Below, piece by piece: positions 4,901 to 19,366 of a DNA stretch of 20,274 nucleotides. The stretch covers positions 1 through 20,274 of the forward strand of contig JAHBNG010000184.1 in assembly GCA_019217005.1 (NCBI GenBank), read 5' to 3'. The notes beneath the pieces were generated by a model. It searched no databases. It saw nothing but the letters and a program-made list of their open reading frames with translations, and was not told the DNA's origin. The stretch comes from Chloroflexi bacterium TSY (GTDB lineage Bacteria; Chloroflexota; Anaerolineae; Caldilineales; Caldilineaceae). The position numbers were made by a program, and so were the translations under genes. Numbering within the stretch: position 1 is the first letter of the stretch; every line of letters begins with the position of its first letter.

Positions 4901-6699
4901 CAACTGAAACAACAGTGGTCTCCACTGCCTACGCAACGAATCGTCAGACAGAGGTGCATCCGGATACAGTGGAGTTGCCCATCGGGCGTCCAATTGCCAA
5001 CACATTGGTCTACTTGTTGGATGCAAGTTTAGAACCGGTTCCACTGGGAATGGCTGGTGAGTTATACATTGGCGGTGCTGGCGTTGCGAGAGGATATCTG
5101 AATCGGCCAGATTTGACGGCAGAACGATTTGTTCCCAATCCCTACCGCGATGAGCCGGGGAGTCGTCTATACAAGACCGGTGATCTTGCTCGCTATCGAC
5201 CCGATGGCAATATCGAGTTCCTGGGCAGGAGCGACCACCAAATCAAGATGCGTGGTTTCCGCATCGAGTTGAGTGAAGTCGAAGCGGCACTGAGCGGACA
5301 CCTGGACGTGCAGGAGGCGGTTGTACTGCTGCGTGACGTTGAAGAAACGGTTGGTCACTCCGATCAGAAACTGGTTGCCTATCTGGTCTGCAAAGATCAG
5401 GCGGAGCTGACCGTTAGCGATATGCGTCGATTCCTGTCTGAGAAGTTGCCAGAGTATATGGTGCCGTCGATCTTTGTCACGCTTGATACGTTGCCGATGA
5501 CGCTCAATCAAAAGGTAGACCGTAAGGCGTTGCCAGCGCCCGATCAAGCGCAATCCACCTTGAAGGAAGACTTTGTGTCGCCTCGTGACCATTTGGAGCT
5601 ACAACTCTCGCATATCTGGTCCGAGATTTTGAATGTTCGTCCAATTAGCGTGGTAGACAACTTCTTTGACCTGGGCGGACATTCGATCCTGGCCGTGCGG
5701 CTGATGGGAAAGATCAAAGAGCACTTTGAACGAGAGCTGCCGCTGGCGACTCTATTCAGTGCCGCAACGATTCAGCAGATGGCCCAACTCTTGCGCCAGG
5801 AGACTAACCCGTTGCCGAGAGCGACGTTGGTGCCCATTCAACCAACAGGGGCAAGACCTCCCTTTTTCTGCGTTCACGCAATTGGCGGCGAAGTGCTCAA
5901 CTTTCTTGATTTGGCTCATCATCTTGGAACAGATCAGCCATTTTATGGACTGCAAGCACCAACGCCTGCGGATGTGGGCAATGAGTATCGGTCGATTGAG
6001 GAGATGGCCGCCAATTATGTCGAAGTAGTGCGTGAAGTACACCCTGAAGGACCATATCTGCTGGGCGGTCTGTGTTACGGTGGTGTCATTGCCTTTGAGA
6101 TGGCGCAGCAACTTCACCGACTCGGTTCTCCCATTTCTCTGTTGACTTTACTGGATACTTGGTCGCCAGCGTTGGTCCCGAACTATGGAGATCAGGCGCA
6201 GCTGTTGGTGGAAAATGCCCAATATCTGGCGCGTTTGAACAAGAAAGACTTAGCCTTGACGCTGGATGAAGTCCGTCGTCTTGACCTTGATGAGCAGGTC
6301 GATTATGTGCTGCGACAAGTCAAGCGAGTTGGTCTTGTTCCGGCGGGGATTGAGATGGACTGGTTGCGCAACTATGTTCAGGGATACAAGCTCAGGTCGG
6401 ATGCTTTTCACGCCTATGTTCCCCAGGCTTATCCCGGCAGAACTGCTCTGTTCCGAGCCGGTTTTCGCAGCGAGCAACAATTTGCAGAGTTTGAAGAACA
6501 GGGAATGGACATTCATGATCAGACACAGGGATGGGGGGCCGTTGCCATGATGCTTGAGAGCGCTGCTGTACCTGGTTATCATGAAACGATGTGTCATGAA
6601 CCACATGTGCAGGTGCTTGCAGAGCGGCTGACCGCATCAATTGATAGAGCCTTGAAAGAGCCGGTGTCGAGAGATGAATTGTTGGTACTGGCAGCTTAA
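1912..6699 (+). CDS. NRPS, rest of first C, then degenerate C*, A (basic-substrate code), PCP, Cys-type TE
   Basis: This is the remainder of the synthetase after the frameshift. In order: the end of C1 (to about 2575), with an Asn-Gly-Ser-rich insert near 2265-2310; a second C-like domain (about 2600-3950) whose motif reads HQIISDD instead of HHxxxDG (first His codon 3034-3036, Gln 3037-3039); a complete A domain (about 3990-5545) with YTSGSTGRPKG, NTYGPTETT, YKTGDLARY and a final NQKVDRKALP; a PCP with Ser at 5683-5685 (DLGGHSILAV); and a TE with GGLCYGG (Cys codon 6073-6075) and catalytic His at 6580-6582. Aligned by eye to GrsA, the specificity residues are D T E D V G T V V plus the A10 Lys. 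The acidic residues at the 239 and 278 positions suggest a basic amino acid such as Lys or a relative. The TE implies this is a terminating module. The first ATG in this frame is at 1966, but that is internal to the C domain, so separate translation is unlikely to give a working protein. Confidence 0.9.
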   Translation, partial: QQNHLTLNTLVQGAVALLLRFYTGGNDILFGSVVSGRPADLPGVETMIGLFINTLPVRVSIAPEESLLAYLVRLHTEQVEMRQYEYTPLVDIHRWSDMPQNRALFECLYVFESYPKGVLGSNGSSPNGSNSSGLRAKGANLNSEEGYKSALTIRSYQVLEQSNFPLVFATGPDTELTLAILYDRGRFDDAVIGRMWGYLQDLLEAIAHQPEKPIHSLLLFPGQIASNAAQSGAHHEQLRALAARSNLTMNQMLVWLGQTMQPESPHYNDASFAFSIAAKVDRVHFQNAIQTLINSCDALRIVIEEIDGVPQQRVLDTFTYEVETLDFSQSEEPYASFQTWARQRSQVPFDFTKPLFAFALVKISERHYVWYMLLHQIISDDNALWLLFEHLSDFYAHSVEGRLDEIVVLPAFQKYVEYDQSYRESARYPKAEEYWQQKLSENVEPVPFYGQVAQLRTTRVQRVSCELGHERTKQLKQIANEKGIASLSEDLTLFNIFASLLYTYLYRTSGNTHLALGAPFHNRHSKTFKETIGLFMQVAPLHIRIKEQDTFLSLIQKVSRELFEAMQHRQYAISNPANARIYDVMLNYHTVTFPDFGGASVQTEWIYPEHGHGPFTLQVQDFNAKGSFVLDFDLHCDLFDEQQRSQVVTHFLRVVDAFLADYTQIVHTVSLLSDDERARVLVQLNQNDRALPAEQTIHQLFEAQVQATPDQLAVVMGDESLTYAQLNAKANQVAHSLRGLGVGPEVLVGISVERSLEMIVGVLGIIKAGGAYVPLDPNYPPERLTMMLEDAQPLVLLTQAHLVKELSDVLSKDVPPTVLCLDGDWNQIAESPTTILDNEVDPSNLAYVIYTSGSTGRPKGVSIAHRSVVNHNLAVIDEFKLTSNDRVLQFATLNFDTAVEEIFPTLITGATLVLRNASPVISIAELYQLTERYQLSILDLPTAYWHEWVAELAIDPQSLPPSLRLVVIGGEKASADWLVTWNKCVGSEITLLNTYGPTETTVVSTAYATNRQTEVHPDTVELPIGRPIANTLVYLLDASLEPVPLGMAGELYIGGAGVARGYLNRPDLTAERFVPNPYRDEPGSRLYKTGDLARYRPDGNIEFLGRSDHQIKMRGFRIELSEVEAALSGHLDVQEAVVLLRDVEETVGHSDQKLVAYLVCKDQAELTVSDMRRFLSEKLPEYMVPSIFVTLDTLPMTLNQKVDRKALPAPDQAQSTLKEDFVSPRDHLELQLSHIWSEILNVRPISVVDNFFDLGGHSILAVRLMGKIKEHFERELPLATLFSAATIQQMAQLLRQETNPLPRATLVPIQPTGARPPFFCVHAIGGEVLNFLDLAHHLGTDQPFYGLQAPTPADVGNEYRSIEEMAANYVEVVREVHPEGPYLLGGLCYGGVIAFEMAQQLHRLGSPISLLTLLDTWSPALVPNYGDQAQLLVENAQYLARLNKKDLALTLDEVRRLDLDEQVDYVLRQVKRVGLVPAGIEMDWLRNYVQGYKLRSDAFHAYVPQAYPGRTALFRAGFRSEQQFAEFEEQGMDIHDQTQGWGAVAMMLESAAVPGYHETMCHEPHVQVLAERLTASIDRALKEPVSRDELLVLAA

Positions 6700-6723
6700 G
6701 TACAAAGATTGGATGTCAAAACA

Positions 6724-8319
6724 ATGCGACAAATTTTGCTACAGGATTGGGTGACACAACGAGCCGAAAAACGACCAGATGAGACGGCCCTGGTTATGGA
6801 TCATGAGATGATGTCTTATGGTCAACTGGAGATGATGTCCAACCAACTGGCTCGGTTGTTGAAATCTTTAGGCTGCCAACGGGGGGAGCGCGTCTGTTTC
6901 GCCGTGCCAAAATCGCCCATGTCCATTGTTTGCCTGCTGGGCATTTTGAAAGCAGATTGTGTCTATGTCCCCATCGATACGGCGAGTCCAGCCAGCCGGG
7001 CGCGCAAGATCATCGAGGCATGTGAGAATCGGTTGTTGCTGACAACGGAACCAGCTGCTTCGCTGGTTGATGAGCTGATGGGCGATGCCGAGATGCGTCA
7101 AACCATGAACGTTGGTTGGTTGAGCGAAGATGATTGCCTTGGGGAAAACTTTACGCCAGTCTTCACGAGAGATGACCTTGAGGAACATGCAACGACGCTG
7201 CTTGATTATAAAAACAATGCAGACGATCTAGCCTACATCTTGTTTACATCGGGGTCGACGGGTACACCTAAAGGGGTTCCCATCACGCATGAAAATGTGC
7301 GGCATTTTGTGGATTGGGGCAATCGTTACTTTGGAACTGGGCCAGATGACCAAGTTTCTGGCCATTCGCCACTGCACTTCGACTTGTCGGTCTTTGACAT
7401 ATTTGGCGCATTTGCTGCGGGCGCACAACTGCATCTCGTGTCGCCTAAGCTCAATTTATTGCCCCATAAGTTGGCTGAATTTATCCGCGAGTCAGAGTTG
7501 ACTCAATGGTTCTCGGTTCCATCGCTGCTCAATTACATGGCGAAATTTGATGTTGTTCAACAAGATGATTTTCCGACATTGAAGAGGTTGCTCTGGTGTG
7601 GTGAGGTTTTTCCAACGCCAGGACTCATCTACTGGATGCAGCGTCTTCCCCATGTAACATTTACAAATCTCTATGGGCCGACTGAAGCAACCATTGCCAG
7701 CAGTTATTACACAGTTCCACGTTGTCCGGAAGATGAAACCAAGTCAGTCCCCATTGGCGTGGCTTGCGCTGGTGAACAGTTGCTTGTCCTGGATGAAGCA
7801 CGACAACCGATTCCTGCTGGTGAGGTTGGTGATCTCTATATTAGTGGTGTCGGTTTAAGCCCAGGTTATTGGAAAGATTCAGAAAAAACGAAGGCCGCGT
7901 TCTCCTCTGTGAACGGCCATGGACCAGAACAACGTGTCTACAAAACCGGTGATTTGGCCCGGATTGGAGAAGAGGGATTGGTCTATTTTCACGGACGTGC
8001 CGACTCGCAGATAAAAAGTCGAGGATATCGCATTGAACTCGGTGAGATTGAGAGTGCATTGAGTGCCATTGACTATGTAGACGAATGTGCAGTTGTTGCA
8101 GTTGACGAGAGTGGATTTGGAGGCGCAATCATCTGTTGTGCCTACGTTCCAACATTAGGTATTGAGGTCACTCCTGTTCTGTTACGTAAACAACTGAGTG
8201 AGCATTTGCCAAATTATATGTTACCGGCGCGCTGGATGGCGTTTGAGGAATTCCCGAAGAATGTCAACGGTAAAATTGATCGCCAGCGCTTAAAAGAGCA
8301 GTTTCAAAAGGAAGCCTGA
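6724..8319 (+). CDS. Free-standing adenylation domain (amino acid activating enzyme)
   Basis: This protein of about 531 residues is a single AMP-binding adenylation domain with no C or PCP attached. All core motifs are intact: ILFTSGSTGTPKGVP (A3, from residue about 168), NLYGPTEATIAS (A5), YKTGDLARI (A7), SRGYRIELGEIES (A8) and NVNGKIDRQRL with the catalytic Lys at about 517 (A10). The eye-read specificity code is about D L F F L C L I A, which I cannot assign to a substrate. ATG 6724 is preferred over TTG 6709 because a GGA at 6711-6713 sits well before it. The gene begins about 25 bp after the upstream NRPS and ends one base before the carrier-protein gene, so the two are almost certainly co-translated and the A domain probably loads that carrier in trans. 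Known precedents are the paired A and carrier proteins that hold an amino acid while it is modified, as in pyrrole formation from proline. A DltA-like ligase is a less likely alternative, given the NRPS setting. Confidence 0.9.
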   Translation: MRQILLQDWVTQRAEKRPDETALVMDHEMMSYGQLEMMSNQLARLLKSLGCQRGERVCFAVPKSPMSIVCLLGILKADCVYVPIDTASPASRARKIIEACENRLLLTTEPAASLVDELMGDAEMRQTMNVGWLSEDDCLGENFTPVFTRDDLEEHATTLLDYKNNADDLAYILFTSGSTGTPKGVPITHENVRHFVDWGNRYFGTGPDDQVSGHSPLHFDLSVFDIFGAFAAGAQLHLVSPKLNLLPHKLAEFIRESELTQWFSVPSLLNYMAKFDVVQQDDFPTLKRLLWCGEVFPTPGLIYWMQRLPHVTFTNLYGPTEATIASSYYTVPRCPEDETKSVPIGVACAGEQLLVLDEARQPIPAGEVGDLYISGVGLSPGYWKDSEKTKAAFSSVNGHGPEQRVYKTGDLARIGEEGLVYFHGRADSQIKSRGYRIELGEIESALSAIDYVDECAVVAVDESGFGGAIICCAYVPTLGIEVTPVLLRKQLSEHLPNYMLPARWMAFEEFPKNVNGKIDRQRLKEQFQKEA

Positions 8320-8320
8320 T

Positions 8321-8635
8321 ATGCGAGAATCTGTCGTTTTGCAAGATCGTATTGCAACCTTAATTTTGGAAAATGTCCACATGGAAGTACCAACCCATGA
8401 GACTGATCTGATCGAAACAGGGATTTTGGATTCGTTTGGTCTTGTCGAATTGATTTATCAATTTGAGGAAGAATTTGGTGTGCCGGTACCGATTCATGAG
8501 ATTGACTTTGAGAATTTTCGCTCCGTCACACAGATGGCACGATTTATTGAGCAACGTACTGGAAACTCGCACAATGGATTCTCCCCTAACGGGAATTCTC
8601 AAAACGGATACTTTCACAACGGGAATTCTCAATGA
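8321..8635 (+). CDS. Free-standing acyl/peptidyl carrier protein
   Basis: This 104-residue protein has a carrier-protein fold of about 80 residues. The motif TGILDSFGLVELI places the phosphopantetheine attachment site at Ser38 (codon 8432-8434). The LDS form resembles discrete carriers such as DltC-type proteins more than the GGHS form of the carriers embedded in the neighbouring synthetases, which fits a partner for a stand-alone A domain. The last 23 residues form an Asn-Gly-Ser tail with repeated NGNSQ, encoded by short DNA repeats. A strong ribosome site, AAGGAAG (8308-8314), lies inside the end of the upstream A gene. The stop TGA overlaps the ATG of the methyltransferase gene (ATGA at 8632-8635), so translation of the three genes is probably coupled. 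The expected role is to carry the activated amino acid as a thioester for methylation and delivery. Confidence 0.9.
   Translation: MRESVVLQDRIATLILENVHMEVPTHETDLIETGILDSFGLVELIYQFEEEFGVPVPIHEIDFENFRSVTQMARFIEQRTGNSHNGFSPNGNSQNGYFHNGNSQ
8570..8635 (+). repeat. Short tandem repeats encoding the carrier-protein tail and forming the next gene's leader
   Basis: Degenerate copies of CACAAYGGGAATTCTCA recur here. One begins CACAATGGATTCTC at 8570, a second is AACGGGAATTCTCA at 8588, and a third is CACAACGGGAATTCTCA at 8615, ending at the ATG of the next gene. They encode the NG-rich C-terminal tail, and the last copy's GGGA also serves as a plausible ribosome site. A related copy precedes the MFS gene at 10239-10264. 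Confidence 0.6.
8609..8635 (+). repeat. Leader direct repeat, copy 1 (5' edge of methyltransferase gene)
   Basis: The pattern is TACTT, T, CACAA, C, GGGAATT, C, TC, A, ATGA. It matches copy 2 at 10239-10264 except for three substitutions and one extra T. It carries the start codon of the methyltransferase gene. Confidence 0.65.
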
Positions 8636-10233
8636 AAAGTAGTGATACCCAAATGATGAATGATGTTCATTCTATAGAGGAGATTGCACAACACGGCAGC
8701 ATCAATGCAGAGGAGATTGAATCAGTTCTGCGTCAACATCCAGCCGTACAAGAGGTACTGGTTCAGAGGCGGAAGAAAAGAGACAATGACACATGGGTTG
8801 CGTATGTGGTGCGCAATCCGCACGACCAAAGTGGACGTGATCCCTCTTTAACAGATCAATTACACAATGAAAAGGTTACACGATGGCAAGTACTTTTTGA
8901 TCACACATACAAACGCTCGGCTGATTCTGAGAATTCTGCATTCGATACAGCGAGTTGGCAAAGCAGCTACACGAACCAACTCATTTCAGAAGACGAGATG
9001 CACGAAGCGGTAGATGATCCCATTGAACATATATTGGCTTTACAACCAGAGCGGGTCTTAGAGATCGGCTGTGGCACAGGTCTGTTGCTGTTCCGAATTG
9101 CCCCTCAATGTGCAAGTTATTGGGGCACGGATATCTCACCAGTTGTGCTTGAATCATTGCAACAACGACTGGAGAGGATCGACCCGCCATTGTCAAATGT
9201 CAAGTTATTCCATCGAAGTGCGGATGATTTTGCTGATATGGCACCGAATAGCATCGATATCATTGTGATGAACTCGGTCGTTCAGTATTTTCCCAGCATC
9301 CATTATCTGGTGCAGGTCGTCAAAGATGCTGTGAAACGAGTTAAGTCCGGGGGTGCGATCTTCGTTGGAGATGTGCGTAGTCTGCCGCTGCTCGAAGCGT
9401 TTCATGCTTCTGTTCAATTGCATCATGCATCTGCATCAATGGAGACAGAGACATTGCGACAACGGATACAAATGCAAATTGAACGAGAAAACGAACTGGC
9501 AATTGATCCGGCTTTCTTTCTGGCCTTGAAACAACATCTGCCAGAGATCAGTCATGTGGAGATTCTGCCCAAACGTGGGCGTCATCACAATGAACTGACG
9601 AAATTTCGTTATCAGGTACTTCTCCATATCGGTGGACAAGAAGTAGATTCGCCTTGCTCGGTCACCAAATTGGATTGGAAACAAGAAGAATTAACGCTTC
9701 CTGTTTTACGTCGATTGCTTCAAGAAGCCGAACCAGAGCTACTCTATGTGACAAATGTGCCCAATGCTAGGCTGTCAGTAGAGATTCAATTATCGACTCT
9801 ACTTACCAGCGATGAACCGCCTGCGACGGTCGGTGAGCTACAAAAAGAGTTAGACAAAGCGGCTGAAATCGGCGTGGATCCGTGTGATCTGTGGGCATTA
9901 TCAGATGAATTACCCTATCGAGTAGAGATCCGTTGGGCATATCATGACCAAAATGGCAGCTATGATCTGATATGCCAGCGCACTTCATCAGATACAAAGT
10001 TGTCGCACACAAAACTGTCAAATTCGCATTTCAAGATAAACCGAGCCGAATCGTCTCCTGACACCGAAGATGATTTAGGCTCCTGGCAAGGCTACGCTAG
10101 CAATCCTTTGCAGGATCGATTGAACCGCCGGTTGGGGCAACAGTTACGACAGTTTACCAAAGAGCGACTACCGGACTATATGATACCTTCGGCGTTTGTG
10201 ATGGTCGATGTACTGCCACAAAGGGATCTCTAA
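8632..10233 (+). CDS. Stand-alone SAM methyltransferase cut from an NRPS A-MT-A domain
   Basis: The 533 residues read as the middle of a methylating NRPS module. Residues about 24-60 (INAEEIESVLRQHPAVQEV...WVAYVV) match the A-domain segment that directly follows motif A8. Residues about 82-430 form the methyltransferase, with VTRWQVLFDHTY (82-93), the SAM-binding loop VLEIGCGTG (132-140), NSVVQYFP and GGAIFVGDVR. The last 25 residues hold A-domain motif A9 (LPDYMIPSAF, 513-522) and then stop before A10, so no catalytic Lys is present. In known N-methylating NRPSs the MT is inserted between A8 and A9, exactly the piece kept here. As a separate gene it cannot adenylate; it would have to methylate, probably on nitrogen, an aminoacyl group held on a carrier in trans, most simply the carrier encoded just upstream. 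The ATG overlaps the upstream stop. The sequence is intact. N- versus C-methylation cannot be settled by eye. Confidence 0.85.
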   Translation: MKSSDTQMMNDVHSIEEIAQHGSINAEEIESVLRQHPAVQEVLVQRRKKRDNDTWVAYVVRNPHDQSGRDPSLTDQLHNEKVTRWQVLFDHTYKRSADSENSAFDTASWQSSYTNQLISEDEMHEAVDDPIEHILALQPERVLEIGCGTGLLLFRIAPQCASYWGTDISPVVLESLQQRLERIDPPLSNVKLFHRSADDFADMAPNSIDIIVMNSVVQYFPSIHYLVQVVKDAVKRVKSGGAIFVGDVRSLPLLEAFHASVQLHHASASMETETLRQRIQMQIERENELAIDPAFFLALKQHLPEISHVEILPKRGRHHNELTKFRYQVLLHIGGQEVDSPCSVTKLDWKQEELTLPVLRRLLQEAEPELLYVTNVPNARLSVEIQLSTLLTSDEPPATVGELQKELDKAAEIGVDPCDLWALSDELPYRVEIRWAYHDQNGSYDLICQRTSSDTKLSHTKLSNSHFKINRAESSPDTEDDLGSWQGYASNPLQDRLNRRLGQQLRQFTKERLPDYMIPSAFVMVDVLPQRDL

Positions 10234-10238
10234 TCATT

Positions 10239-10264
10239 TACTTCACAATGGGAATTTTCCATGA
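10239..10264 (+). repeat. Leader direct repeat, copy 2 (start of MFS gene, just past methyltransferase gene)
   Basis: The pattern is TACTT, CACAA, T, GGGAATT, T, TC, C, ATGA. It includes the MFS start codon at 10261 and a GGGA ribosome-site candidate at the same spacing as in copy 1. The two copies bracket the whole methyltransferase gene. Confidence 0.65.
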
Positions 10265-11013
10265 GCCAAACAGCGAATCTCGCAACAGATCAAACCACTC
10301 TGGGACAACCTAATTCAGAGAGACAACAGCCGGAGCCGCAACGCCCTGTCAAACTGCTAAACTGGAATTTTGTGCTGTTATGGCAGGGTCAAGTTGTCAG
10401 CGGTCTAGGTGCTCAGTTTTATGCAATTGCGATGGTCTTGTGGATCAAACAGGCGACATCCTCAGCCAGCTTATTGGGGCTGATCAATACATTGACGGGT
10501 TTTACTGCTGTGCTGTTGGGGGTGTTTGCTGGTACGTTGGCCGACCGCTACGCTCGTCGTAAGATTATCATTGTGAGCGATCTGGTTCGAGGTATACTCA
10601 TGCTGGTCCTTTCTGGTTTATTTTTCATGATGCCCCAATCGACTAGCGTGATCGTTCTGTGGATGATGGTCACAGCTGTTTCTATGTCGGCCGCTAGCTC
10701 GTTCTTTCGGCCTGCAATCGCGGCTGCGATGCCGGAACTGGTGCCAGAGGATCAGCTAACAAGAGCAAATTCGCTCACGAGTTCCTCATCGCAAATTACG
10801 CGCTTTCTCGGTCAAGCCCTAGGTGGGTTGCTCTTTCGTCTGCTCGGTGCGCCTCTCATTACATTGGTAAATGGCGTAACCTACATTTTTTCAGCAATCA
10901 GCGAAATGTTTATCAAAATCCCCCAGAACATTCCGGAAAAAAGCGGTGATTGGCGAAAGGAGCTTGATGTTTTCAAACAAGATCTGCTTGAGGGATTTCA
11001 CTATACTCAGTAG
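10261..11013 (+). pseudogene. MFS efflux transporter, N-terminal half (interrupted by an inverted-repeat element)
   Basis: This is a major facilitator exporter of the drug/siderophore efflux type. After a polar N-terminal tail of about 35 residues come membrane segments (WQGQVVSGLGAQFYAIAMVLW, then LLGLINTLTGFTAVLLGVF) and the family signature GTLADRYARRK between the second and third helices. More helices follow up to residue about 215, then a cytoplasmic loop (KSGDWRKELDVFKQDLLEGFHY). The frame stops at TAG 11011-11013, which lies inside the inserted element. Removing exactly 220 bases (for example 11005-11224) rejoins this half to the next in frame and gives a 447-residue transporter of normal length. 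Its place between the biosynthetic genes suggests export of the peptide. With the insertion, only the first six or so helices would be made, so the protein is probably inactive. Confidence 0.88.
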
Positions 11014-11224
11014 ATCCAAATTTGGCGTTTTTGGCTATTTTCAGTCGAGATTGCAGGGATTTTGGAGTCATTTATTCAGATTTCGGTTACAGAAAACAAC
11101 CTATTTCATATCTGAAAATCGCCCAAATCTAACGCAAAAACTAGATATCGACCGGCAAATTTGTATTTATGTCAACTGTTTAGCCAGAATTCTCTCTCAA
11201 AACCTGAAATTTGGATCTACTGAG
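11006..11224. mobile_element. MITE-like inverted-repeat element inserted in the MFS gene
   Basis: The ends are perfect 18-bp inverted repeats: CTCAGTAGATCCAAATTT at 11006-11023 and its complement at 11207-11224. The interior is AT-rich and holds no gene of its own. The flanks show a possible 3-bp target duplication, ACT at 11005-11007 and ACT at 11225-11227, which would put the element at 11008-11224. Element plus duplication equals 220 bases, and deleting that length restores the transporter frame. It is too short to encode a transposase and would need one in trans. I cannot name the parent insertion sequence. Confidence 0.8.
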
Positions 11225-11824
11225 ACTTGGAACAATGCTGGGTTAAAGGTCATCGTTTTGACCACCGCCTATCTGGGCTTCTTTACATCACCGGTTCTTC
11301 TCTTGCTACCTTTCTACATTGAGGACTTTCTGGGCGTTGCGATTGACTGGTATGGTTATTTTCTATCAGCTTTTGGGATCGGTGTCCTTGCCGGCTCGTT
11401 GGGTGCCGGTTTGGTCAACCTGAGTGGTCAAGTTCGTGTCACAACTTTGATCTTTTTGATCTTCTTAAACTCTGTGATCATTGGGGCATTTGGCATCACG
11501 AACAATATCTATGTCGCCATGGGGCTTGCCTTCCTTGTGGGTGGGGCCATCGGATTCAATAGCGTCCACATGAATGCCATTTTACAAATGACCATCCCAA
11601 GCGAGATTCGTGGACGCGCCTTTGGATTCATGTCCACAGTGTCGGGCAGTACCGCCCCTCTTGGTATGGCGCTGGGTGGCTTTGTTTTTGATTTCACTGG
11701 TCAGAATATCCCGCTGATCTACATCAGTTGTGGCGCAGCTCAACTCCTGGCTGCTATCTTCATTTCCGGGAATCGAGATTTTCGGGAGTTTGTGGCGTAT
11801 GAGCCAGCGGAAGATGGTGGATAG
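11225..11824 (+). pseudogene. MFS efflux transporter, C-terminal half
   Basis: This continues the exporter after the inserted element, starting TWNNAGLKVIVLTTAYLG. Hydrophobic helices follow (FFTSPVLLLLPFYIEDFL, YGYFLSAFGIGVLAGSLGAG, VTTLIFLIFLNSVIIGAF, YVAMGLAFLVGGAIGFN). The conserved loop IPSEIRGRAFGF, typical before a late helix of this family, comes next, then two last helices and a charged tail ending EDGG. An ATG-started reading from 10946 runs through the element in this frame, but its first 90 or so residues are translated element and belong to no transporter. No ribosome site at the junction suggests separate expression. Confidence 0.85.
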
Positions 11825-12029
11825 CGGATGGCGTATTGTTGGGCGGGGCGATGTTTTGTCCCTCTGGTTTCTAGAGAAGATCACCTGAGCTTGGCATTTC
11901 CCGCCCTGCAAAGACGGGCTACAGTTAATCGCTTATGGCTTCGGTAACGCTGTATTAGTACATTTGTCAGCCGGAAATTTTATTTCAAGGCGGCTGTTCA
12001 CGAAACGATATTGAGAGAATAGGTATAGG

Positions 12030-14640
12030 ATGACGATGATGGGTTTACAAGACGATTTCGTCGCAAAGATTAATCAAACGTATGTTGAGTACCCTCGTGC
12101 TGTGTGTATCCATGAGCTTTTTGAGCAACAGGTAGAGCTGACACTGGAGGCTATTGCGGTTGTTTGCCAAGACGAGACGATAACATACGGTGAATTGAAT
12201 CACCGCGCCAACCAACTCTCCTACCATCTACAGGAGCTGGGGGTAGGTCCCGAGCAGTTTGTTGGCATTTGCGTTGAGCGCTCGATTGAGATGGTCGTCG
12301 GCTTGCTTGGCATTCTCAAAGCTGGAGGAGCCTACCTGCCGCTGGATCCGGATTTCCCGAAAGATCGGTTGGCCTTTATGATTGAGGATACGCAAGCTTC
12401 GGTTCTCGTAACGCAACAGTCGCTGGTGGCTGAATTGCCGCCCCATTCGGCAACTCTTGTCTGTTTGGATACGCACCAAGACGAGATTGCTGCTGCCGTC
12501 GCGTCAACTGATTCGAGGAAGGTGATGAGCAGCAACTTGGCCTATGTGATCTACACGTCCGGCTCAACTGGCAAACCAAAAGGCGTCCAGATTCCCCACT
12601 ATGCCCTGACGAACTTTCTCTGCACCATGCAAGAGCAACCGGGGCTGAGCGAACGAGATATTCTGCTGGCGATCACGACGCTCTCCTTCGACATTGCTGA
12701 GTTGGAACTGTATCTCCCTCTCATCACTGGCGGGCGTGTGGTGATTGCACCGAAACAGGTGACTGCCGATGGTCGGGCGTTGGCAGCCGCAATCGAGGAT
12801 GTCGGTGCAACCGTGATGCAGGCAACGCCAGCTACCTGGCGCATGCTGCTTCATGCGGGTTGGGAAGGTTCCCAGAATCTCAAGGTACTTTGCGGGGGCG
12901 AAGCATTGTCCCTGGATCTAGCAGAGCAACTACTGGCCCGCAGTGGCGAACTCTGGAATATGTTTGGACCGACCGAGACAACAGTCTGGTCTACGGTCAA
13001 GCAAATCTCTGCGGACGACGAAAAAATTCTCGTGGGGCGTCCCATCGCCAATACCGAGGTCTATGTATTGGATGACTATCTGCAGTTGGTGCCAATCGGG
13101 ATGGAGGGTGAACTTGTGATTGGGGGAGACGGTTTGGCCGTGGGGTATCTGAATCGTCCCGATCTGACTGCCGAGCGCTTCATCCCGCACCCTTTCAGCG
13201 AGCGACCCGGCGCACGTCTTTACAGAACTGGCGATCTAGCACGTTTTCAACCGGAGGGGAGTCTGGAGCATCTCGGTCGCATGGATCATCAGGTGAAGAT
13301 TCGGGGTTATCGTATTGAGTTGGGTGAAATCGAAACGAATCTGAATCGGCACCCCGCCGTTCACCAAGCGGTGGTCGTGGCACGGGAAGATACCCCAGGC
13401 AATCAACAGTTGGTTGCTTATGTGGTTCCAGAAAGCGCTCAGAAGCCGACCATCGGTGACCTACGTCGTTTCTTAAATACCAGCCTGCCGGACTACATGT
13501 TGCCCTCTGCTCGTGTGTTGCTAGACGCCCTGCCTCTGACGCCCAACGCGAAGGTCGATCGGCGTGCGCTGCCCGCTCCTGATCTGTCTCGCCCTGAACT
13601 CAGCGAAGCGTTTGTGGCACCACGCACCTTACTAGAGGGACAAGTAGCCGCTATCTGGGCACAAGTTCTTGGCATGGAAGACGGAGCCACTTCTGAGGCG
13701 GGAGCAATTGGCATTCACGATAACTTCTTCGAACTTGGGGGGCACTCGCTGTCCGCCACGCAGGTGATTTCACGACTGCTCCAGGAGTTTTCGGTTGAAC
13801 TCACATTGCCCAGCTTGTTTAAGGTGCCCACAATTGCGGGTCTGGCGCAATTGATTGAGCAGGCGCAACAGGCCGGACAGGACGCAACGTCATTGCGGAT
13901 CCTGCCTGTGGAACGGACGGACAATGTGCCGATCTCCTGTACCCAGGAGAGTCTTTGGCTGCTGGATCAATTGGGGTTAAGTGGTCATTCCTACAACATG
14001 CAGCAAGTGATGCGCCTACAGGGAACGCTCAACGTACCAGCGCTGACCCAAGCCTTGACGGAGATCGTCCGGCGCCATGAGAGTTTGCGGACAACGTTTG
14101 TGACTATTGATGGGCAACCAGTGCAGATCATTGGAGATGATTTGCACTTCCCGCTGCCTCTAGAAAATCTGTCTGGTCTTGACCACAACGAGCAGGAGGC
14201 GAAGATTCATGTGCTGGCAAGGAACGAGGTAGAGCAGACCTTCGACCTGGCACAAGGGCCTCTGTTGCGCGGCTTGCTCTTGCGTCTTGCTGATAGTGAA
14301 CACGTCTTGATCTTGACGATGCACCATATCATTTCGGATGAGTGGTCTCTTTGGGTCTTCTGGCACGAGTTGACTGCACTCTACGAAGCCTTTGTCATTG
14401 AACAACCGTCACCTTTAGCTGAATTGACCATTCAGTATGCAGACTACGCCTATTTTCAGCGGCAGTGGATTCAGGGGGCGTTCTTCGATGAACAACTGAC
14501 CTACTGGAAAGAGCAACTGGCAGATTTACCCATATTGGAGATGCCGACAGATCGTCCGCGACCACCCAAAGCAACCATCCACGGTGCCCGATATCCACTC
14601 ACTTTGTCGTCTGAGCTGACGCAATCACTCCAAGCGCTAA
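12030..14640 (+). pseudogene. NRPS A(Gly)-PCP-C: first module and first part of a C domain, cut by an insertion sequence
   Basis: This is the N-terminal part of a third synthetase. It starts directly with an A domain and no C domain, as starter modules do. ATG 12030 has AGG at 12021-12023; ATGs at 12036 and 12039 are alternatives. The A domain (about 12100-13570) is complete: YTSGSTGKPKG, NMFGPTETTVWS, YRTGDLARF, KIRGYRIELGEIE, NAKVDRRALP. Aligned by eye to GrsA, the code is D I L Q L G M V W, one or two residues from the published glycine code. A PCP follows (Ser in ELGGHSLSATQ, about 13745), then a C domain with HHIISDE (14322-14342), where the usual final Gly of HHxxxDG is Glu. The reading frame runs into the insertion element after LTQSLQAL and stops at 14663. 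The gene would have continued through 19824. Confidence 0.9.
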
Positions 14641-15935
14641 GGCTAAACCAAAAAAATAAATAATTATACGCGAACGAGAGAATGGAGAGGGGGAATAAGG
14701 ACAAACCATTTTTCTAAACCAGGTAAACGTTGGAAGCGTTGTTCCAAACGGTCCATCTCTTTCTGAGTGAGTTTGACGCCGGTCTCATAAAGAGTGGAAT
14801 TCAGGTGAACGAAGGGTTGTAGTTGGTTAAAGCGAAAAGAACGGGCAAAATTGAGAACGGTCTCAAGAGAATCGAGAAGAACCGTTCCAGTGTTTTCAAG
14901 ATGGCCCCAAACCCGTTCGATGGGGTTGTATTTACTGTGATAAGGAGGGTAGCAGGCGAGCTGAATAGAGAGACGATAGTGCTCAACAAACTGAGTGAGA
15001 CGATACATAAACTGAGTCCGACGGGTATGATTTTCGGGACCATTGTCCTGATTGATCACGAGGGTCTTGACGTGAGGAAAGTGTTCACGTACGCTTTCCC
15101 AAAATCAATCAGGCAGTCGACAATACAGTCACTCGTCACTTTCGACTGAGTCAAGTAAAGAAAGAGTTCCTTGGTTGAAGGGAGGTAAATGCCAAAGGAG
15201 TGACTTTCTCGGTCTTCTTATCTTGAAAGTCATGATCGAGCGCTTTGACAACCACTCGACTTATCCCTTCTCTCGAGAAACGGTCAAGTAAAATCGTCGC
15301 TTTGGCATCCCAAGAGGGTGCAGAACCGTCTCGTCTGCATCCGCTTCTTGATTGATCTGATGAATTCTATCAAAGATCGCATCGGTCTCTGGGATCTTTT
15401 CACTGGTTGACTTTTTTTGACCCGGTTTGAGCCATAGCCTAACTCATTGAGCTTCAAGCGGATGGCCTCTTCGCCAGGCAATTCCTCATCTGTGTATCCT
15501 TTCTGCTCGATGAGCTGGGTACGCATTTCGGCGGCGGTTAGTCGAGTGTACAATTGGGGGGTCGAAAGGTGGGATCGGTCTGGCTGAATTGATCGGCGAT
15601 TTCAACCATATCGGCCAGTAAAGTGGGGATATGGTCTTCGGCTTTTGCGACCACGTCGGTGGCTTTGGTCGACATAACAGAAGCCGCCTTCTAGTTCTTC
15701 CAGGGCTTTGGCTATCGTCGCCCGATTCCAGCCCAACTCTCGTTCTGCTTTCGTCGGACTCCCTTCGCATATCGTTTTGACCGTTTGGGCCATGAAGTGC
15801 CTTCTTTCGTATCCACTTAACATGGCCTTCGTCTCTTTCAAGACTTCAACCATTTCTGGCGAGATTGTCATTTTTGCTCCTTTTGGAGAGCTAGTTTAAC
15901 ACCTTCTCGCGTATATTTTATTTTTTGGATTGGCC
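14641..15935 (-). mobile_element. ISAzo13-family insertion sequence, degenerate, inside an NRPS C domain
   Basis: The element is about 1,295 bp with related ends. The left end begins GGCTAAACCAAAAAAATAAA and continues to TATACGCGA (14641-14673). The right end, read inward, begins GGCCAATCCAAAAAATAAAA and continues to TATACGCGA (15907-15935). It carries one transposase gene on the minus strand. The flanks TAA (14638-14640) and TTA (15936-15938) look like a 3-bp target duplication with one change. Removing element plus 3 bases (1,298) rejoins the C domain in frame as LTQSLQAL-SQREGVTLFMTLL, a normal C-domain sequence. Confidence 0.85.
14664..15871 (-). pseudogene. ISAzo13-family transposase, broken by about six frameshifts
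   Basis: Pieces of one DDE transposase of about 400 residues lie in order on the minus strand. They are the N-terminus from ATG 15871 (with an AAAGGAG ribosome site before it) through ELGWNRATIAKALEELEGG; then IPTLLADMVEIADQFSQTDP; LYTRLTAAEMRTQLIEQKGY; IPETDAIFDRIHQINQEADA; ILLDRFSREGISRVVVKALD; LYLTQSKVTSDCIVDCLIDF; and the C-terminus with VINQDNGPENH and YPPYHSKYNPIERVWGHLEN, which holds the family's catalytic Asp and Glu. Breaks lie near 15645, 15558 (a run of six G on the + strand), 15398, 15312, 15195 and 15100. The last piece ends in the left terminal repeat. The enzyme cannot be made, so the element is immobile unless helped in trans. Confidence 0.85.
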
Positions 15936-17245
15936 TTAGTCAACGGGAAGGTGTTACCCTTTTTATGACGCTGTTGGCCGCTTTTCAGATCCTGTTGCGT
16001 CGCTACAGTGGTCAGGAGGACATCCCAATCGGAACTGTGATTGCCAACCGAACTCGAGTTGAAGTGGAGGCGCTGATAGGCTTCTTCATTAATACACTTG
16101 TTCTGTGTGGGGACCTCTCTGGCGATCCAACTTTTCCTGAGCTTTTAGAGCGTGTCCGTGCCGTCACCTTGGGGGCCTACAGTCACCAAGAGTTGCCATT
16201 CGAGAAGCTGGTCGAAGAACTTCAGCCCGAGCGCGATTTGAGTCGCAATCCACTGTTTCAAGTCATGTTCGTACTCCAAAATGCACCGGATGCAAACCTT
16301 GCCTTGTCGGGTCTAATGCTCGACTCGATAGAAGTGGACCCTGGTGTTGCGCTCTTTGACTTAACGCTCGAACTCATGGAGACGCCAACTGGGTTACGCG
16401 GCTGGTTTGAATATAATTGTGATCTCTTTGATGAAACCACGATGCAACGCATGGCGCAGCACTTTGAGACGCTGTTACAGGCCATCGTTGCCAATCCGGA
16501 TCGTTCGGTTTCAACATTCCCGATATTGCACGATGATGAACGTCGTCAGTTGCTAGTTGAGTGGAACGATAGCCAGATCGACTTTGCGACTGAAAGACAG
16601 TGCTTCCATCAGCTCTTCGAGACACAAGTGGCGCAGACACCCGGCGCAGTAGCTGTGCTGTTTCAAGATCAACAACTGACCTATCACCAACTCAATGAGC
16701 AGGCCAACGGGATAGCCCACCTGCTGGTCCAACAGGGAGTTGGTCCCGAGGTATTGGTCACGCTATATGCGGATCGGAGTCCCGATTTTCTAATAGCGAT
16801 GCTGGCTGTTTTCAAAGCAGGCGGTGCCTATTTGCCGCTTGACACGCGTGCGCCTGTTTCTCGTTTGGCTCAGGTCTTATCCCAAAGTGAGACACCTCTG
16901 GTGCTAACCACAGATGCGTTGGCTCCGATCCTCAACGAGGCGCTGGAAGAGGTATCAACTGCCGATGCTCCCGCTGTACTGCACCTGGAGACGCTCAAGA
17001 ATCAGGCGCATGCAACAGGGAACTTGCTACCCCGTAGCACACCAACCAATCTGGCCTACGTCATCTATACATCTGGTTCAACGGGGCTGCCCAAAGGGGC
17101 AATGGTTGAGCAGCGGGGCATGGTCAATCATCTCTATGCCAAGATTCAGGATCTGGCGTTAACTGCCGAGGATTTGATCGCGCAGAACGCTTCCCAGAGC
17201 TTCGATATCTCAGTTTGGCAATTTTTGGCTGGTCTACTCTCGAAG
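15936..17245 (+). pseudogene. NRPS fragment: second half of the C domain and first half of the second A domain
   Basis: This continues the NRPS after the insertion sequence (SQREGVTLFMTLLAAFQILL). It contains the C-terminal lobe of the C domain (IGFFINTLVL, YSHQELPFEKLVEEL, NPLFQVMFVLQN) to about 16530. The second A domain then runs from about 16600, with LTYHQLNEQANGIAHLL, FKAGGAYLPLD, the ATP-binding YTSGSTGLPKG (about 17070-17100) and FDISVWQFLAG, the A4 region. At about 17235-17245 sequence is lost. The typical 30 or so residues between WQFLAGLL and TLEVVPSLM are missing and the frame changes, so this piece runs to a stop at 17260. The ATG at 15965 is internal to the C domain; no independent start is supported. 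Confidence 0.85.
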
Positions 17246-17706
17246 TTGTGCCATCGCTGATGCGCATGATGTTAGACGAAGTAGCCAATGGCACACAGCT
17301 CGAGTTGGCAAAGTTACGCTGGCTGATTCCCACTGGCGAGGCTTTGCCACCTTCTCTGGCTCGCCAGTGGCTGACCTGCTATCCAAATATTCCGTTGCTC
17401 AATGCCTATGGACCCACTGAGTGTTCAGATGATGTAACACACTACGCCCTCTATGAGCCGCCAGCTGATGATCTGGTCAACATGCCCATCGGTCGTCCTG
17501 TGGCCAACATGCAGATCTATATCCTGGATACGCACATGGAGCCAGTTCCCATCGGCGTGGCGGGTGAGCTCTGCGTGGGCGGTATTGGCGTGGGGCGTGG
17601 CTATCTACACGATCCTGACCGAACCACCGAAGCCTTTGTCCAGAATCCGTTTGTATCAAGTCCAAAGTTGACGGGTGACACCATAGACTCAGGACTCAGG
17701 ACCTAG
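17238..17706 (+). pseudogene. NRPS fragment: middle of the second A domain, between a deletion and a repeat-linked frameshift
   Basis: This is a third reading frame of the same synthetase. It starts inside the A domain at STLEVVPSLMRMMLDEV, then LRWLIPTGEALPP, NAYGPTECSDDVTHYAL (A5) and GELCVGGIGVGRGYL (A6). The readable specificity residues are D I W (from the previous piece) and E I T A D D here; I cannot assign a substrate with confidence. The frame ends at TAG 17704-17706, inside a heptamer repeat (GACTCAG, GACTCAG, GACCTAG). Removing two heptamers (17693-17706) joins this piece in frame to the A7 motif as DTIDSGRLYKTGD, showing how the break arose. Confidence 0.82.
17686..17706. repeat. 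Heptanucleotide tandem repeat GACTCAG x2 plus GACCTAG inside an A domain
   Basis: Three 7-base units lie head to tail at 17686-17692, 17693-17699 and 17700-17706, followed by GAC. The third unit supplies the in-frame TAG. Copy number sets the frame: one copy restores the A domain, while two or three break it. Heptamer repeats are known as STRR sequences in filamentous cyanobacteria. Confidence 0.8.
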
Positions 17707-19366
17707 GACGTCTATACAAGACGGGTGACAAGGCACGCTACCTGCCTGATGGCAATATCGAGTTCCTAGGGCGCTTGGACTACCAAGTGAAGATCCGTGG
17801 TTTTCGTATTGAACTTGGTGAAATCGAGGCTGCGTTGGATTCTCATCCAAACATCTATGAATCCGTTGTGTTGGCTCGTGAGTATGAATCTGGCGACAAG
17901 CGTCTCGTTGCGTATGTGGTCCCACACGAAGGGCAGACTCTTTTGGCAGATGACTTGCGCCAATACCTAAAGGCCAGGCTGCCAGATTACATGGTCCCCA
18001 CTGCCTATGTGCTGTTGGATGCCATGCCGCTGACGCCCAATGGGAAGATCAACCGCAAGGCGCTTCCAGCACCCGACACCGAGCAATTGGCGTTGACCAG
18101 CACATTCATGGCACCACGCACACCCAATGAGCAGCTGATCACCGATCTTTGGGCAGAAGTGCTTTCGGTCAAGCAAGTTGGTATTCATGATAACTTCTTT
18201 GAGTTGGGTGGACATTCTTTGGCCTCCATCCAGATTATGGTGCGGTTGCAGGATACCTTCCAAACGAAACTGCCGATTCAGCAGCTGTTTGAGACGCCCA
18301 CAGTTGCGAGTCTGGCCCAAGTGATCGCAACTGGACAGGATAAGGAATTTGGTATGCAGGCACCGCCACTGGTTTCAGTGTCGCATGACAGCAGCCTTCC
18401 CCTTTCTTATGCTCAGGAGCGAATCTGGTTGCTTGAACAGTTGGCGTCGAGTGCCCCGCCATATCGGTCTGCCGTTCGTTTGCAAGGGCCAGTGAATGAA
18501 TCTGTGCTTCGTCAATGTCTAAATGAAATTGTGCAGCGCCACGCCATCTTTCGCACAACTTTTGTTTCCGTCGATGGCCGTCCAACCCAAGTGATCGCAC
18601 CAATGTTGACCTTGTCGATACCCAAATCCGATCTCGATGATTTGCCTGCGGCTGAACAGATAGCTGAAGCGCAGCGATTGGTGATCGCGCTCTCACAAAA
18701 ACCCTTTGACTTGACTCAAGGGCCGCTTCTACGGGTGCATTTATTGCGCTTTGCGGAAGAGGATTGGGGATTGTTGATGTCAACCCCCCAGATTATCTAC
18801 GATGGCTTGTCTGGAAACATATTTATGCAAGAGTTGATCGCACTGTATGAGGCCTTTTCGCAAGGACGTCCTTCACCGCTGCCAGAGCTACCAATTCAGT
18901 ATGCTGACTACGCGGCGTGGCAACGCCAGTGGTTGAAAGACGATGTGTTGAAAGAGCAACTGGCCTATTGGCAGCAGCAATTGGATGCGCTACCGGTTCT
19001 TGAACTGTCCACCGTCCGAAGCAATTCTGACCAGAATGCCATGAGCACGACGGCCCAGGGAATGAGCCATCACTTTACGGTCCCTGATTCGTTGGCAGAG
19101 GCCATCCAAGACTTGAGCCGCTCTGCTGACGCGACGCTCTTTATGACTCTGTTGGCTGCATACAAAATGATGCTGGCTGGTTACACAGCACTAGATGATA
19201 TCGTGGTTGGCTCGCCTTCAGGCAACCGGACACATACGGAGACCGAGGGATTGATTGGGCGCTTTATGCAGCCTCTGGTGTTGCGTACTGATCTGACGGG
19301 CAATCCGTCCTTCTCAACAGTGTTGGAGCGGGTGCGCAAGATGTGTCTGGAGGCTTATGCCCGCCC
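17707..19366 (+). pseudogene. NRPS fragment: end of the second A domain, PCP, and most of a degenerate C* domain
   Basis: This continues the synthetase with A7 (RLYKTGDKARY), A8 (KIRGFRIELGEIEAAL), A9 (LPDYMVPTAYVLLD) and A10 (NGKINRKALPAPD). A PCP follows (Ser in ELGGHSLASIQ, about 18213), then a C domain from about 18375 (LSYAQERIWLLEQL, RHAIFRTTFV). The active-site motif reads TPQIIYDG (18783-18806), so both His residues of HHxxxDG are gone, replaced by Pro and Gln; the Asp-Gly is kept. The C-terminal lobe follows (TLFMTLLAAYKMMLAGY, SPSGNRTHTETEGLIGRFM). The frame breaks at 19359-19366, where GCCC is doubled; dropping four bases gives AYAHQEAPFEML, the normal C-domain sequence. Unrepaired, this frame ends at 19385. 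The ATG at 17775 is not a natural start. Confidence 0.85.

Follow-up and report, generated by a model that had tools for sequence, protein, structure and literature searches.

Methyltransferases placed inside the adenylation (A) domains of nonribosomal peptide synthetases (NRPS) are known as a kind of interrupted A domain, and one of the closest systems to the locus considered here is TioS A4-M4-A4 (PDB 5WMM), in which an N-methyltransferase lies between motifs A8 and A9. TioS M4 is presented as an N-methylating insert in PMC11355689, and the N-methyltransferase domains treated in PMC2613160 are likewise placed between A8 and A9. According to PMC6670151, the isolated methyltransferase of bassianolide synthetase was active on aminoacyl-N-acetylcysteamine (aminoacyl-SNAC) with relaxed specificity, and fixed ends or an added small A2 fragment shifted it to its native preference. 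Recombination tends to keep the A sub-domain intact, and with it the contact surface to the carrier, as stressed in PMC8097286. Pairs of a stand-alone A domain and a stand-alone carrier are represented by DltA/DltC and by the PigI type. The stretch of DNA analysed here (the window, 20,274 nucleotides of contig JAHBNG010000184.1 of Chloroflexi bacterium TSY) contains a gene at 8632..10233 for a free-standing methyltransferase with A-domain slices on both sides. With somewhat better than even confidence, this gene is read from its sequence as coding for a methyltransferase dedicated to action in trans, most probably of the N-methylating type, that was cut from an A8-methyltransferase-A9 interrupted A domain and acts on the neighbouring pair of A domain and carrier. 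A free natural protein of this build is a variant of the known interrupted A-domain methyltransferases; no description of one, or of one in a Dlt-like setting, was found in the accessible parts of the literature searched, which does not establish absence from print.

The gene and its parts, in amino acids (aa) where lengths are given, are as follows:
8632..10233, forward strand: free-standing methyltransferase between A-domain slices, 533 aa (open reading frame, Pfam, structure model), with an ATGA overlap with the carrier stop
8698..8820, forward strand: N-terminal A slice, residues about 23-63, end of the A8 helix and two strands (AMP-binding_C, model)
8989..9639, forward strand: S-adenosylmethionine (SAM) methyltransferase core, residues about 120-336, with EIGCGTG and NSVVQYFP motifs (PF08242 E 1.6e-16; conserved columns)
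10084..10230, forward strand: C-terminal A slice, residues 485-533, ending after A9 and lacking A10 (33/49 identical to P0003, see below; model)

The protein (P0001) is encoded by 533 uninterrupted codons with their own start and stop and has no adenylation domain in the polypeptide; the coordinates, frame, start and stop given in a preliminary description of this DNA were recovered unchanged. Methyltransferase models were placed by Pfam at residues about 142-242. Positions 1-38 of the 76-position AMP-binding_C profile, its first half, align to residues 28-64 with a whole-protein E-value of 5.8e-8, to which no single stretch contributes significantly alone. The N-terminus is a poorly conserved tail, and A-domain likeness begins at AEEIESVL, within the closing residues of A8. 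At the C-terminus, LPDYMIPSAFVMVDVLP represents the A9 stretch, where NCBIfam adenylating-enzyme models match weakly (residues 498-530), and the protein ends in LPQRDL directly after A9. The preliminary description, in which the gene was an A8-methyltransferase-A9 slice beginning after A8, stands as to the A-domain sequence on both sides and is refined at both ends: the start lies inside the last A8 residues, and the stop comes after A9. In the predicted structure the N slice comprises a helix (26-34) and two strands (39-49 and 52-61), and the C slice a helix (494-512) and a strand (521-525). P0001 keeps the near-invariant columns of a 63-row alignment of relatives (EIGCGTG, NSVVQYFP, GDVRS, NELTxFRY). 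The methyltransferase is bounded by A8-side and A9-side sequence in the manner of an A8-A9 interrupted A domain, and its best solved relative is TioS M4. The labels A8, A9 and A10 follow general usage and the cited papers.

What distinguishes P0001 from TioS is the lack of the A core, the A8 hinge and A10, a separate gene, and genes of their own for the A domain and the carrier. P0001 has no A8 hinge KxRGxRIE, no A3 or A10 motif and no AMP-binding match (Pfam) was found in it, and a complete A domain (core motifs and A10) is not part of the same polypeptide. The open frame extends just 14 codons upstream of the ATG, and NGKxDR (A10) does not occur in the three forward frames over about 107 bases past the stop. 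Remnants of a larger module were sought by tblastn with six relatives of A-methyltransferase-A-carrier layout and two A genes as queries, read for 6600-12000; the methyltransferase itself was matched at 8677/8701-10218, and no A-core remnant was found beside it besides the complete A gene at 6724-8319. One query (P0035) aligned beyond the stop as far as 10353; this extension contains a gap of 16 residues, covers the transporter start, lacks NGKxDR and is taken as a chance match. A decayed full module, named in advance as the finding that would speak against an excised insert, was thus not encountered at the locus.

Among the relatives of P0001 (120 proteins listed of 1254 found, the window's own included) the best is P0003, a free-standing protein of 528 aa with 50% identity over 99% coverage. 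The alignment covers P0003 from residue 1, and both proteins stop at the same position after LP, so that their end points agree; among the 120 listed of the 1254 proteins, these two alone have both ends of this kind. One free-standing relative with such ends thus exists, the relatives are not all embedded in full NRPSs, and the proposal of an insert set free as its own gene gains support from P0003 and from the A slices on both sides. P0001 and P0003 form a clade with support of 100/99, for which the bootstrap was not fully settled, and with 99 and 100 in the Shimodaira-Hasegawa-like approximate likelihood ratio test (SH-aLRT) in other trees. Other short or unusual relatives differ in their ends: P0091 (41%) is a short protein with a short N side that keeps A10 (p 0.329 in the approximately unbiased (AU) test for kinship with the pair), P0110 is without the N slice and has an unrelated end, and P0009 retains A10 and has its start upstream of A8.

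Identities between P0001 and P0003 amount to 4/22 in the tail, 17/41 in the N slice, 24/56 in the lead-in, 134/217 in the SAM core, 53/119 in the later methyltransferase lobe, 4/29 in the linker and 33/49 in the C slice. The N slice is less conserved than the core in this pair (Fisher p 0.024); the six pairs formed by four longer relatives share 24-29 of 41 N-slice residues and 22-30 of 49 C-slice residues. The N slice appears to be looser and the C slice held in the free pair, the former being expected because A8 would no longer work. These data bear on the possibility that the cluster is decaying and that the gene is what is left, truncated and functionless, of an NRPS module that once methylated. 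Such a relic would suit a window in which neighbouring condensation (C) domain, major facilitator superfamily (MFS) transporter and A-domain genes are interrupted, one of the C domains by a stretch with an ISAzo13-type transposase fragment, and it is judged distinctly unlikely in view of 533 intact codons, the end points repeated in the 50% relative, a C slice kept as well as the catalytic core (33/49 vs 134/217), the lack of A-core remnants nearby and the uninterrupted, abutting A, carrier and methyltransferase genes.

The genes next to the methyltransferase are:
6724..8319, forward strand: stand-alone complete A domain, 531 aa (TIGR01733 388 bits, cut-off 317.4; AMP-binding and AMP-binding_C full length)
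8321..8635, forward strand: stand-alone carrier, 104 aa, DltC-like, with the GILDSF serine and a C-terminal Asn-Gly repeat tail (PF00550 E 5e-7)
10261..11824, forward strand: MFS transporter gene, interrupted (TIGR00900 profile 1-204 in one open reading frame (ORF), 205-361 in the next)

The A-domain, carrier and methyltransferase genes (6724-8319, 8321-8635 and 8632-10233) adjoin or overlap one another, all of them uninterrupted, and the overlap of carrier and methyltransferase is ATGA. The pair of A domain and carrier is of the same kind as DltA/DltC and PigI-type pairs; it differs from DltA/DltC in that the curated cut-offs are not reached (A domain 329.6 vs 476 bits, carrier 41.2 vs 68), in that the membrane acyltransferase DltB was not found among the annotated ORFs of the window, and in the added methyltransferase. 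The closest relative of the A domain is P0122 (73% identity), which apparently lies on the same contig as P0003, and it is very likely that the A and methyltransferase genes travel together. A homologue search for the carrier (two candidates) returned the window's own protein only. Distant stand-alone relatives of the A domain occur in 6/297 Acidobacteriota genomes at E 1e-160 (L094-L099), with a carrier motif near the A gene in 5/6 loci; at the sixth the motif scan detected no carrier motif, and a different SAM methyltransferase gene abuts. GNAT-type acetyltransferases and luciferase-like monooxygenases were seen near some of these Acidobacteriota genes (Pfam on some neighbours). A search with P0002 at E 1e-160 gave no match in 301 Chloroflexota genomes and, lacking a positive control, is uninformative.

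A second lineage shows a related layout. In Bradyrhizobium sp. S69 (L043, 9956-13057) a 1033-aa protein combines a methyltransferase slice with a complete A domain, the slice forming the N-terminal part. Residues 16-499 of this fusion protein match P0001 28-529 at 35%, and, as in P0001, the slice is without A8 hinge or A10 and ends just after A9 at LP. Downstream (locus 9956-14904), where the window has its MFS transporter, there is a 511-aa hydrophobic protein of another kind, followed by a small carrier with GRLDSL two genes on from the fusion. The hydrophobic protein had no Pfam match, and its two-sequence profile found nothing in PDB; its homologues in Bradyrhizobium relatives gave a weak DltB match in 1/2 (E 0.0065). 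A predicted model of it (predicted local distance difference test, pLDDT, 39.6) was not used. No NRPS gene was found in the nine ORFs checked at this locus. In a related genome (G958, L199) the A domain (68%), the hydrophobic protein (58%) and a carrier are present. In the tree, the Bradyrhizobium slice falls together with an embedded domain from Azospirillum and a gammaproteobacterial domain truncated at the end of its contig (98 SH-aLRT). This placement suggests that it was released separately, though a single clade of this slice with the window pair is not rejected by the AU test (p 0.397).

The methyltransferase probably serves the adjacent loader and carrier genes. Judged from the protein families, the stand-alone A domain would activate an amino acid and load it on the stand-alone carrier, and the freed methyltransferase would then use SAM to methylate the carrier-bound amino acid on its amine. 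The two A slices together may form most of the A sub-domain, clamp both ends of the methyltransferase and set its shape and specificity, and they would have been kept because of this clamping; they may also help the methyltransferase to meet the A domain or carrier, docking of the slices to either being possible. By analogy, P0001 can be regarded as the natural equivalent of a methyltransferase plus A fragment, such as the aMT construct of bassianolide synthetase (PMC6670151), with which it shares a methyltransferase and a small piece of host A domain in one protein. The construct is man-made and fungal, with trans methylation tried with the bare methyltransferase and failing, whereas P0001 is natural and looks bacterial. 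What is directly observed comprises the anatomy, the end points common to the 50% relative, a C slice that is conserved, the ATGA overlap with the carrier gene and the A-domain fusion in a second lineage.

In the preliminary description the slices were thought to complement the upstream A domain, as a docking or completing surface of a split A-methyltransferase-A enzyme. Slice and A domain do occur together in the window, are fused in Bradyrhizobium and are probably together on the contig of P0003. Complementation is nonetheless unsupported because the upstream domain keeps its own A3, A5, A7, A8 and A10; its AMP-binding_C is full length, the slice has neither A8 hinge nor A10 lysine, and the idea is considered highly improbable. 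The Bradyrhizobium fusion indicates that slice and A domain can be partners, and it shows a neighbour, not a docking patch. The preliminary description is on the whole partly supported: its observation is confirmed and the excised insert upheld, and complementation is not. It may also be asked whether a working trans methyltransferase acts on carriers of the flanking NRPSs or on the finished peptide, instead of the adjacent stand-alone carrier. NRPS modules lie on both sides of the three genes, and trans tailoring of NRPS-bound intermediates or after release is described in the review PMC8949500. This alternative is held to be unlikely, as the gene overlaps that of the stand-alone carrier by ATGA, the Bradyrhizobium slice is fused to a complete A domain with no NRPS gene in the nine ORFs checked, and P0003 likely shares its contig with an A gene.

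The free form appears to be rare. A first contig profile scan, based on the alignment of P0001 and P0003, yielded 79 pattern matches and no relative; a second gave at least 230 relatives among 591 stretches, of which the best 80 were examined as loci, a domain being counted as embedded with at least 120 aa upstream and at least 40 aa downstream in frame. Ten loci did not qualify as embedded, namely five at contig ends (L037, L039, L049, L051, L074), one beside masked bases (L003), two with broken frames (L022 and L060), the Bradyrhizobium fusion (L043) and one free protein without slices (L075); closer inspection covered L003, L043, L049, L060 and L075. Sampled genomes were searched with P0001 at an E-value threshold of 1e-60, scoring no more than the top 4 or 5 candidates in each genome, and matches were obtained in 37/292 cyanobacterial (61 matches), 12/301 Chloroflexota (20) and 12/297 Acidobacteriota genomes (18). 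Open frames of at least 1063 aa held 98/99 of them (one with an internal TAA), and the remaining one is a 593-aa frame cut by a contig end, with A10 and a carrier domain; no free form was shown among the 99 matches scored in these 890 genomes of three phyla, a long frame being counted as embedded. Among plasmids P0001 matches 88 records, with 14 of the 15 matches listed annotated as NRPS or adenylation proteins, and the L043 protein matches 2625 plasmid records (12 listed).

Several findings weigh against a dedicated N-methylating partner of the A and carrier pair. The co-expressed bare bassianolide methyltransferase gave no methylation in trans (PMC6670151), and KtzH carries an O-methylating insert between A8 and A9 (PMC11355689), which slightly lowers confidence in the reading as a whole. 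Most relatives sit inside larger proteins (70/80 of the best loci embedded), the start of P0003 is a predicted one, and its linkage with P0122 was deduced from matching records, the DNA itself being unseen. The C slice is not significantly better conserved than the SAM core (Fisher p 0.52). The fusion of methyltransferase and A domain occurs in 1/248 genomes of its family, and in G958 the A domain is preceded by no more of the methyltransferase than a piece corresponding to its residues 78-124, which indicates that the methyltransferase can be lost in this setting. A chlamydial member of the same family (Simkaniaceae, L075, 9998-11095, 366 aa) is free and has neither A slice, with A and carrier-like matches close by on the other strand, and the slices are accordingly not essential for a free form. 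Finally, the cluster may be dying, since neighbouring genes are broken: interruptions were located in a condensation domain (1927/1966), the MFS gene (11013/10946), an A domain (17260/17215) and a C domain (19385/19357), with a further break at 17706-17775, and another C domain is split at 14663 by a 1.3 kb stretch (14663-15965) with the ISAzo13-type transposase fragment. These breaks may represent either decay or assembly errors. A short 7-base tandem repeat, GACTCAG, at 17686-17702 adjoins an A-domain break.

The methyltransferase gene is flanked by a direct repeat:
8612..8635, forward strand: left copy of a 24-base direct repeat, with a GGGAA ribosome-site-like stretch
10241..10264, forward strand: right copy, ending at the transporter ATG, 20/24 identical

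The left copy is the end of the carrier gene, the ATG overlap included, and its best match in 31 mononucleotide-shuffled windows was 17/24 (one strand, light prefilter). The proportion of G and C at third codon positions is 0.40-0.48 in the A, carrier and methyltransferase genes; the values are higher in the two pieces of the transporter gene (0.51 and 0.54) and in those of the NRPSs (0.52-0.58). Repeat and composition fit the insertion of a cassette, but a shared ribosome-site leader would also account for the repeat. A weaker match at 8582-8605, in the Asn-Gly tail of the carrier, reaches 17/24, equal to the best shuffle.

A broader and tentative proposal, regarded as rather unlikely, is that the block of A sub-domain and methyltransferase would be a portable unit, released from NRPS modules more than once near the same end points and reused in trans as an N-methylating partner for pairs of stand-alone A domain and carrier, with a Dlt-like setting in Bradyrhizobium. 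If this were true, N-methyl-aminoacyl groups in the Bradyrhizobium setting would be passed to a membrane acyltransferase and not to a peptide line. The natural cut sites, which keep most of the A sub-domain and drop the A8 hinge and A10, would yield a design rule for portable backbone methylation that can be put to the test, and would help in testing why such methyltransferases nest in A domains.
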